This document shows, piece after piece, positions 17,676 to 19,556 of a stretch of DNA of 41,211 nucleotides. The DNA is taken from contig JAHEIN010000009.1 in the NCBI GenBank assembly GCA_024639335.1, positions 1 to 41,211 on the forward strand, written 5' to 3'. Positions within the stretch are counted from its first letter, which is position 1. Each line of letters opens with the position of its first letter. Source of the DNA: a bacterium. GTDB lineage: Bacteria; Actinomycetota; Acidimicrobiia; Spongiisociales; ZC4RG35. The translations under genes were made by a program, and so were the position numbers. A model generated the notes under the pieces. It had not been told where the DNA came from. It ran no database searches and saw nothing but the letters and a program-made list of their open reading frames with translations.

Positions 17676-18182
17676 TCAGCGATCTGAGCCGACCGGTCGC
17701 TCCATCAGCGATACGAAGGCCCCATAGGGCGTTTGCTGCTGCCCCACCTCGGTGAAGCCCAGGCGGCGGTGGAACGCCATCGACGCCGGATTGGGGGGTT
17801 CGACGTTGACCTCGAGGCCGAGCCTGGTCGTGTCTGGATGATCAGTCTCGATCCGATCGAACACGGACGCGTACAGCGCCCGTCCGAGGCCGAGGCCTCG
17901 ATGGCCGGCATCGATCGCCACCCTGTCGAGGTACATGACGTCGTCGCCTCGGTCGGCAAACCATCGATAGTTCACCGAGTCGTACGTCGAGCCCGGTGGG
18001 AGCACCAACACGAAACCGAGAACCGCTGGACCAGCTGTCGCCACCAATGCGATCGCAGACTCATCGACGAGGAACTCCAGGCGATCGGCATCGATCGACC
18101 CGACCTCTGGCGTGTTCGCCTGGTTGAGCTCGAGCACCGGACTGAGATCGGTGGAATGGATCGGACGGATCGAAAGCGTCAT
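17676..18182 (-). CDS. GNAT family N-acetyltransferase
   Basis: The 168-aa protein shows the acetyl-CoA motif YLDRVAIDAGHRGLGLGRAL (the G-L-G-x-G/A type loop) followed by the typical C-terminal NPASMAFHRRLGFTEVG. The N-terminal IRPIHSTDLSPVLELNQ fits the family. ATG 18182 overlaps the stop of the selenoprotein candidate as ATGA, so the two genes are translationally linked. The substrate is unknown. Confidence 0.9.
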   Translation of the reverse strand: MTLSIRPIHSTDLSPVLELNQANTPEVGSIDADRLEFLVDESAIALVATAGPAVLGFVLVLPPGSTYDSVNYRWFADRGDDVMYLDRVAIDAGHRGLGLGRALYASVFDRIETDHPDTTRLGLEVNVEPPNPASMAFHRRLGFTEVGQQQTPYGAFVSLMERPVGSDR

Positions 18183-18712
18183 CCTCGAAGAACGGCGACG
18201 AGCTCGTCGAGATCGGCGTGATCGCCGGCGTACTCCTCGAACTCGACATACAGCAACTGGTCTCCCGGGGCGATCACGAGTGTCGCCCCGAGCTGCATGG
18301 GACGGCGGCCGGTCTTCCCCTGTGGCCCGGCGGCCTTGACAGCTCGGGCACCGGCAATCCACGCCCGAGGGTTGACCGCCATGCCGATCCCGACAGTGTT
18401 CGTGCCCACGATCTCGGCAGCGCTGCCGTCTTCGTCGAGGAGCACCTCGAACGGAACCTGCAAGTCCTCGATGAATGCCTTGGCGTACCGCTTCCCACCT
18501 GTGCCGATTGCAACGACACCTGCTCCGGTCGACAGGATCTCTTCGTACCGCTCACGGACCTGACCGGCCCGCTCCCGACAAGTCACTCAACCGAAGTGAC
18601 GGAGGAAGAGAACCAGGGCACGCTGTTCGGACCATCGGTCCCCGAAGCGGTGCTCGTTCCCGTCGGGATCGATGAGCACATGATCGGCCAGCCGTGAGAC
18701 GTCGATACTCAT
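18179..18712 (-). CDS. Selenocysteine-containing peroxiredoxin-like (AhpC-TSA_2 type) thioredoxin-fold protein
   Basis: Reading from ATG 18712 gives 177 residues with one in-frame TGA at 18587-18589 (codon 42). Both sides fit one protein: ALVLFLRHFG, then TGA, then VTCRERAGQVRERYEE. The related family has RHFG-C-x-x-C-R-E here, so TGA replaces the first Cys of a C-x-x-C motif, giving U-x-x-C. The rest (VVAIGTGGKRYAKAF, VPFEVLLDEDG, QLGATLVI) is the thioredoxin fold of AhpC/TSA family 2. A SECIS-like hairpin follows the TGA. The start overlaps the upstream 53-aa ORF as TGATG, and the end overlaps the GNAT gene as ATGA. A conventional caller would report only 135 aa from the GTG after the TGA, losing the active site. 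Redox function is inferred from the fold. Confidence 0.85.
18555..18571 (-). promoter_or_regulatory. Bacterial SECIS-like hairpin
   Basis: On the minus strand CGGGCC (18571-18566) pairs with GGTCCG (18560-18555), 6 bp with one G-U, around the loop GGTCA. The loop begins 22 bases after the in-frame TGA. Bacterial SECIS elements lie immediately after UGA inside the coding region, and the E. coli fdhF loop is GGUCU, which is very close to this one. SelB recognises this loop to insert selenocysteine. Confidence 0.7.
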
Positions 18713-18873
18713 CAGAGGCCCGGGATCACTTCTCGAGCGAGGAACTCGCATCCGGTGGTGTCGCAGACCTCGATGGGCCCGGACACCGGCGTCATCGTGT
18801 TCCGATGCTCCGGCCGTTCGATTCCGACCAGGTCGAGGCGCCGACCCTGTGGTACGTGTGCTCCAGACCTCAT
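18712..18873 (-). CDS. Small 53-aa ORF upstream of the selenoprotein
   Basis: ATG 18873 opens 53 codons ending in TGA that overlaps the selenoprotein ATG as TGATG. A TAGCGT box (18886-18881) ends 7 bases before the ATG, the spacing seen at other leaderless genes here, and third positions are GC-rich in this frame. The protein (start MRSGAHVPQGRRLDLVG, later VCDTTGCEFLAREVIPGL) has a C-x4-C motif and no domain I recognise. It is probably the first gene of the operon with the selenoprotein and the GNAT. Confidence 0.45.
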   Translation of the reverse strand: MRSGAHVPQGRRLDLVGIERPEHRNTMTPVSGPIEVCDTTGCEFLAREVIPGL

Positions 18874-18880
18874 TGATTGA

Positions 18881-18886
18881 ACGCTA
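18881..18886 (-). promoter_or_regulatory. Candidate -10 box of the selenoprotein operon
   Basis: TAGCGT on the minus strand ends 7 bases before ATG 18873, consistent with a leaderless transcript for the 53-aa ORF and the genes behind it. Confidence 0.35.
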
Positions 18887-19028
18887 GCCCGGCGTGGGAG
18901 CTGTTCGGAAACCACCCATGAGGCCGCGGCTCTCGTGTCCGGATGGGCAGTCCAGATCGATCGTTCGGATGCTGAAGGCTCCCTGATCGACGGCCGAGTA
19001 GTGGGCCAACGGGGGTGTCGATGGTCGG

Positions 19029-19034
19029 TAGGGT
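19029..19034 (+). promoter_or_regulatory. Candidate -10 box of the leaderless nitroreductase gene
   Basis: TAGGGT ends 6 bases before ATG 19041, with no Shine-Dalgarno sequence between. Confidence 0.45.
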
Positions 19035-19040
19035 ATTCAC

Positions 19041-19556
19041 ATGGATACATGGGACGCGATCACCTCTCGGCGTCAGGTCCGTAGCTTCACCGATCAGCCG
19101 ATCCCCGAGGGAGTCCTGGGACGCATTCTCGATGGCGCCCGTCTTTCTCCGTCAGGGAGCAACCGCCAGCCATGGGACTTCGTCGTTGTCAGAGACCCGG
19201 AGCAGAAGGAGCGTTTGTCGGCGGTCTGGAGGGGCGCCGCATTCACAGCGGACGCTGCTTGTGTGGTTGCGATGGTCCAGCCGATCGTCGATGACGAGGC
19301 CCGAGAACTCATGAACCGATTCGACGTCGGCCAAGCCGCACTCCAACTCGCCGTCGTTGCCGCTGATGAGAGAGTTGGAAGCGGCCTGGCGGCATGTCGG
19401 GACCAGGATCTTGCTCGCGAAGTCCTTGGGCTACCCGAGGATCGTTTCGTTGCCATTCTGGTGGCGCTCGGGTACCCCGCAGATCGCCCGATGGAACCCA
19501 TCAAGAGCCTCGATCGGCGCCCACTCGACGAGGTCGTCCGCTTCGACCGCTGGTGA
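19041..19556 (+). CDS. Nitroreductase family protein
   Basis: The 171-aa protein has the FMN-binding nitroreductase start (ITSRRQVRSFTDQPIPEGVL), ILDGARLSPSGSNRQPWDFV with the S/N-x-Q-P-W motif, then FDVGQAALQLAVVAADERVG and FVAILVALGYPAD. Members are FMN enzymes reducing nitro groups, quinones or flavins with NAD(P)H. It is divergent from the selenoprotein operon and convergent with the carboxylesterase. The 140-base gap after it holds the palindrome CGAAGGCCTTCG (19575-19586) and no gene I can support. Confidence 0.9.
   Translation: MDTWDAITSRRQVRSFTDQPIPEGVLGRILDGARLSPSGSNRQPWDFVVVRDPEQKERLSAVWRGAAFTADAACVVAMVQPIVDDEARELMNRFDVGQAALQLAVVAADERVGSGLAACRDQDLAREVLGLPEDRFVAILVALGYPADRPMEPIKSLDRRPLDEVVRFDRW

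Follow-up and report, generated by a model that had tools for sequence, protein, structure and literature searches.

A predicted UxxC selenoprotein of the PRXL2/AhpC-TSA_2 type in an acidimicrobial genome and its mostly selenocysteine-containing relatives in Actinomycetota

Introduction

Could the TGA that interrupts a reading frame of an acidimicrobial contig be decoded as selenocysteine (Sec)? The question is raised by a stretch of 41,211 nucleotides (contig JAHEIN010000009.1 of assembly GCA_024639335.1), the whole of which is called the window hereafter. The original prediction held that the TGA specifies Sec in an AhpC-TSA_2-like protein of thioredoxin fold, and pointed to four kinds of evidence that bear on this reading, that is, the alignment with cysteine (Cys) homologues, a SECIS hairpin, the genes selA, selB, selC and selD in the same genome, and possible decay around the TGA in relatives. 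Here, we report a computational analysis of the locus. The source assembly has a size of 3.2 Mb in 296 contigs and is 91.6% complete, and the profile searches that enlarged the set of homologues covered the class with 345 genomes and the phylum with 397. The features at the locus are as follows.

17676-18182, minus strand: GNAT-family acetyltransferase gene (Pfam Acetyltransf_1, 4.9e-11), with an ATGA overlap with the end of the selenoprotein gene
18179-18712, minus strand: predicted selenoprotein coding sequence, 177 aa, Sec as residue 42, UxxC motif RHFG-U-V-T-C
18554-18572, minus strand: predicted SECIS hairpin 5'-GCGGGCC-GGUCA-GGUCCGU-3', apical loop at 18561-18565, 21 nt after the UGA
18578-18580, minus strand: TGT codon of Cys45, second residue of UxxC and predicted resolving Cys
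18584-18586, minus strand: GTG directly 3' of the TGA, false start of a 135-aa open reading frame (18179-18586)
18587-18589, minus strand: in-frame TGA, predicted Sec codon (codon 42)
18712-19050, minus strand: upstream open reading frame of 112 aa without a recognised domain, with a TGATG overlap with the selenoprotein gene

The reading frame and its neighbours

Translation of 18712-18179 on the minus strand gives MSIDVSRLADHVLIDPDGNEHRFGDRWSEQRALVLFLRHFG*VTCRERAGQ...VLRG*, that is, 177 codons and a stop with one internal TGA, which stands in the motif LFLRHFG-U-VTCRERAGQ. The sequence and the coordinates are as originally predicted, where the strand had not been named. The start Met is aligned in most homologues of clade A, the group of 27 genes discussed below. 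The GC contents at codon positions 1/2/3 are 0.73/0.37/0.73 on the 5' side of the TGA and 0.74/0.47/0.76 on its 3' side. A single coding pattern therefore runs through the TGA codon, in agreement with the coding signal claimed for both sides. Because a GTG directly follows the TGA, ordinary rules for open reading frames yield the 135-aa product without the first redox residue, and a standard gene caller is misled here just as had been anticipated. Judged by GC3, a TGA is flanked on either side by open frame at four more places of the window, 6320 (minus), 21625 (minus), 23129 (plus) and 37884 (plus), the latter two being probably adjacent genes in one frame.

Clean overlaps with both neighbours had been claimed as well, and this holds for the downstream side, where the four-base overlap with the GNAT gene is also found in L009, a relative of the same genus (72% identity). 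The GNAT gene was not found adjoining the Sec gene in relatives other than L009. On the upstream side, the 112-aa frame, without a match in Pfam or NCBIfam, is doubtful as a gene. The only stretch of L009 that resembles it (48 residues, 54%) is separated from the Sec gene start by about 880 bases on the upstream side, which makes the TGATG junction weak evidence. Since the GNAT neighbour is kept in the same genus only and the upstream frame is doubtful, no function was read from the gene context, and no conservation of the gene neighbours was found beyond the genus.

Conservation of the TGA codon

A search of GTDB contigs retrieved 11 loci with 54-73% identity, all of which have TGA at the same codon and come from actinobacterial MAGs wherever the taxon is stated. 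The family set comprises 93 distinct Actinomycetota genes, including that of the window. The equivalent of codon 42 is TGA in 84 genes and Cys (TGC or TGT) in nine, a set drawn with a Sec-rich query in which distant Cys forms may be under-sampled. In the alignment, Cys thus stands at the TGA codon, and the second Cys of the UxxC or CxxC motif is invariant (93/93). Decay near the TGA was not seen in the 84 TGA genes, and none of the 93 genes contains an in-frame stop elsewhere, whether TAA, TAG or a second TGA. When the window gene is compared codon by codon with its relatives, the differences cluster at third positions, both 5' of the TGA and within the 60 codons that follow it. As judged from these comparisons, the window gene is a member of a large, mostly Sec-containing subfamily of the PRXL2/AhpC-TSA_2 type, and no isolated case.

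Several putative Sec paralogue groups of the same fold also occur in various Acidimicrobiia (L080-L093), with the motifs RYYGUIPC, RYFGUAPC, RGFAUPFC and RHLAULPC, all of the UxxC form. In addition, one relative in the phylum has tandem Sec-form copies (L106/L098, G368:C130:56122-57215) separated by 56 bases.

The real product could instead be the 135-aa protein initiated at GTG18586, or two separate peptides, with the 41 upstream codons excluded, as standard rules yield this protein and GTG is a legal start codon. However, the upstream part is conserved as protein, with LFLRHFG invariant in clade A, and the GTG is not kept in relatives, where the codon after the TGA varies (GTG, CTG, CTT, ATG, ATC, ACG, GCG and others). 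In the Cys homologues, the frame runs across the TGA-equivalent codon over the full length, and according to the structural model the shorter product would lose the first central strand of the fold and the first redox residue. Consequently, we regard this alternative as very improbable.

Selenocysteine machinery and the exchange of Sec for Cys

If the TGA is read as Sec, can the host genome supply it? A tRNA-Sec gene scores 69.7 bits in the source genome and is confirmed by ARAGORN with the anticodon TCA; the background of this model can be gauged from a tRNA-Ser gene of the same genome, which reaches 49.7 bits. The selA (434.9 bits) and selB genes (321.9 bits, or 347.8 with a second piece) are adjacent on contig C7, and selD (393.2 bits) is on contig C223, so that all four sel genes are present in the same genome. 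The selD gene (G000:C223:26252-27178, locus L020) carries its own TGA, in the context SHGAG-TGA-ACKLG, and SelD is by its sequence a predicted selenoprotein itself. The gene of the formate dehydrogenase alpha subunit, fdhA (G000:C36:23144-25015, L121; 673 bits), has a TGA at the U-H-x-P site. Therefore, at least three genes of the source genome, selD, fdhA and the window gene, have a TGA at a Sec site.

Among the genomes of the class, selA was found in 43 of the 47 with the Sec form (clades A-C) versus 186 of the 298 others (Fisher 4e-5). Two Sec-form genomes without selA (G234 and G188) still have a tRNA-Sec at 68 bits, and no clear Sec machinery was found in two more, G331 and G343, which are 72% and 68% complete, respectively. 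The Cys-form genomes of the class that belong to the same clades (G194, G203 and G111) have no selA and no tRNA-Sec above 47 bits, and the tRNA-Sec search reaches at most 47.9 bits in the three genomes with the Cys form from other parts of the phylum. Three Cys genes of a distant paralogue group (L094-L096), whose genomes have selA, were left out of this comparison. Two selA matches each, versus one in other genomes, were obtained in G084 and G170, which may represent duplicate or split genes.

A tree of 80 genes requires four changes between Sec and Cys, and Sec forms occur on either side of its midpoint root. Four independent replacements of Sec by Cys would be the simplest reading, which is not proved because the midpoint root serves for drawing only.

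The putative SECIS hairpin

According to the rules for bacterial SECIS elements, the loop has 3-9 nt with a G in its first two positions and lies 16-37 nt after the UGA, and the stem has at least 4 bp with a minimum free energy (MFE) of -7.5 or lower (PMC13188914). The hairpin of the window agrees with this published model, with the loop GGUCA at 21 nt, G at the first loop position, a 7-bp stem and an MFE of -12.1 kcal/mol for a 29-nt stretch (-13.8 in the scan). It is also conserved. The 27 genes of clade A share the consensus GCGRGCC-GGUCA-GGUYCGC with the loop at +21 from the UGA, and in a rule scan of this clade L017 was the sole gene without a fitting hairpin, while the outermost pair is lost in L009 and others.

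The codons that form the hairpin are unusually constant. Codons +7 to +9 are GCC GGT CAG in 27/27 genes of clade A, whereas GGT makes up 19% of the Gly codons elsewhere in these genes, and over codons +4 to +11 the synonymous entropy amounts to 0.30 of the expected value versus 0.88 elsewhere, the frozen synonymous sites being those of codons +5 to +10. Stem pair 4 changes from G-C to A-U in two genes and most other pairs are invariant, so that covariation adds little. In the sister clades, a second hairpin is found, CGCGC-AGUU-GCGCG with the loop at +25. The Leu codon of this hairpin, at +10 after the TGA, is TTG in 45/48 Sec genes and in 0/8 Cys genes, versus 8.3% elsewhere, a contrast for which the Fisher p value of 1.2e-7 is nominal since related sequences are counted. 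No other single observation speaks as strongly for the putative selection on the RNA as this difference between the two forms of the gene.

Folded alone, the window sequence is unremarkable, with z-scores of -1.88 (29 nt) and -0.04 (57 nt). Single-sequence folding, which is not significant by itself, was therefore rejected as proof of a SECIS element, and the case for this candidate is comparative. A scan with the known SECIS families of Rfam gave no matches, and the second SECIS type (TGA-N21-GCGCAGTTGCG), sought in the source genome, had no match there. Following its TGA, fdhA of the same genome has the hairpin CGGUCGCC-GGUCU-GGCGGCUG, with the loop 18 nt after the UGA. Its loop and that of the window hairpin begin with the same GGUC, which would be expected if one SelB reads both.

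An open frame alone does not tell which residue is inserted, and the TGA could in principle be read as another amino acid, such as Trp or Cys. We give this reading very little credence, however. All the non-TGA homologues have Cys at this position, a canonical tRNA-Sec with the anticodon TCA is present together with SelA, SelB and SelD, the SECIS-like hairpin after the TGA is conserved, and neither selA nor a clear tRNA-Sec was found in the three genomes of the class with the Cys form. The least probable reading, a dying gene with a nonsense mutation or a sequencing error, for which one base change from TGC or TGT to TGA suffices in a sequence whose assembly is fragmented into 296 contigs, was rejected because the TGA is common to 84 distinct genes across the phylum without any other stop, and it is also opposed by the bias of changes towards third positions before and after the TGA, the full Sec machinery and the frozen hairpin codons.

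Fold, family and nearest known systems

Compared with Pfam, the read-through protein scores 41.9 bits for AhpC-TSA_2 (PF13911, cut-off 27), 37.6 for AhpC-TSA (PF00578, cut-off 26) and 35.6 for Redoxin (cut-off 26.6). The AhpC-TSA_2-like identity given in the original prediction is thus supported at the gathering score of PF13911. In the AlphaFold2 model (mean pLDDT 83, pTM 0.78), a strand (32-39) is followed by a loop with U42 and a helix (43-54), an arrangement in which UxxC opens the first active-site helix of the thioredoxin fold. A PHROGs search gave no match, and no NCBIfam model passed at its cut-off. The best NCBIfam match is NF040769, SelL-related redox protein, which aligns over the full length (E 2.2e-24) and has the same RHxxC/UxxC region, but the window protein reaches 86 bits, below the curated cut-off of 120. 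Among the paralogue groups tested against this model, only the distant Sec paralogue L088 (RHLAULPC) passes, at 144 bits. SelL carries a UxxU diselenide motif, which is absent here: 84/84 Sec genes have UxxC, with one TGA each.

The best solved relative by sequence profile is human prostamide/PGF synthase (9us9, E 7e-7, residues 4-173), in which FGCVVCR aligns with FGUVTCR and Cys47 of the CxxC motif stands opposite Cys45. The structures 9us9 and 9usa are also among the best fold matches (for chain A of 9us9, an rmsd of 1.8 and a TM of 0.88 by target length). However, the identity to the human enzyme is about 20-24%, and the window protein is bacterial, with the putative SECIS inside the coding sequence. 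The human enzyme converts prostaglandin H2 or prostamide H2 by reduction to the F form, whereas, to our knowledge, prostaglandins are not expected in the source organism, and the window protein is not known to act on a prostaglandin endoperoxide. Animal Selenoprotein U, in which SelU3 is the prostamide/PGF synthase, is of one superfamily with the window protein. Both Sec and Cys forms occur among SelU genes (PMC3473315). The top fold match is mycobacterial BcpB (5epf, E 2.6e-9, TM 0.71/0.81, 22% identity). However, the window protein has a UxxC pair and lacks the peroxidatic motif PxxxTxxC of true peroxiredoxins, which is PxxxTxxU in Sec forms (PMC13188914), LRHFGUVTC having no Pro or Thr in register.

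Has this family been catalogued before? A review of 2026 lists 119 prokaryotic selenoprotein families, including UxxS for cd02970 and a broad PF00578 group of peroxiredoxin-like proteins with UxxC/UxxU (PMC13188914). This inventory has no UxxC entry for the cd02970/AhpC-TSA_2 domain, does not name the window clade and does not mention Acidimicrobiia. The peroxiredoxin-like cd02970/AhpC-TSA_2 proteins (PMC13188914; PMC9312934) share the domain family and have Sec as the first redox residue, but with UxxS where the window protein has UxxC. The peroxiredoxin-like thiol:disulfide oxidoreductases (PF00578, UxxC/UxxU; PMC13188914) and the Prx-like 1-3 proteins of the GOS survey (PMC2398784) likewise have Sec in UxxC on a peroxiredoxin-like fold, the PF00578 group being a broad catch-all that was compared with the window clade by its description only. 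The window family is a putative new subfamily of the PRXL2/AhpC-TSA_2-type proteins, set apart from the broad PF00578 UxxC group by that description only.

Proposed reading and mechanism

With high confidence, we consider the gene at 18712-18179 (minus) to encode a full-length predicted selenoprotein, in which UGA would be decoded as Sec at residue 42 by means of SelB and the hairpin, giving a PRXL2/AhpC-TSA_2-type oxidoreductase with U42-x-x-C45. The frame, the Sec/Cys exchange, the hairpin, the Sec machinery and the fold, on which this reading is based, were all obtained by computation. The original claim that the TGA is read as Sec is thereby supported by the Cys alignment, the SECIS-like hairpin, the sel genes and the lack of decay in relatives.

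For SelB binding, Sec insertion and the catalytic cycle, we infer the following course. SelB and Sec-tRNA-Sec would bind the hairpin with the loop GGUCA just after the UGA, and the ribosome would insert Sec at residue 42. The U42 selenolate would then most likely attack a peroxide, endoperoxide or disulfide. C45 would resolve the resulting intermediate by forming a selenenylsulfide, from which a reductant of the thioredoxin type would restore the U42/C45 pair, the substrate and the reductant being proposed as classes only.

Implications

Beyond this locus, we lean slightly towards a wider reading. There may be an uncatalogued, mostly Sec-containing PRXL2/SelU-like family in Actinomycetota, whose SECIS elements would be of several types that differ between lineages (GGUCA at +21 and AGUU at +25). 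Sec would be its ancestral residue, and four or more replacements by Cys would have taken place, always in genomes that show no clear tRNA-Sec. Such a family would be the bacterial counterpart of animal Selenoprotein U.

Gene callers that take TGA as a stop would truncate such a protein, and half of the active site would be lost, as is the case for the window frame. The rare Leu codon TTG may serve as an easy marker of actinobacterial selenoproteins that lack annotation. The two hairpin types in close relatives, one of which shares the start of its loop, GGUC, with fdhA of its own genome, may provide a test set for the recognition by actinobacterial SelB. The family also offers many natural Sec/Cys pairs, in which the loss of the Sec machinery, the loss of the hairpin codons and the exchange for Cys appear to go together. 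Therefore, the benefit of Sec to the enzyme would be directly testable.
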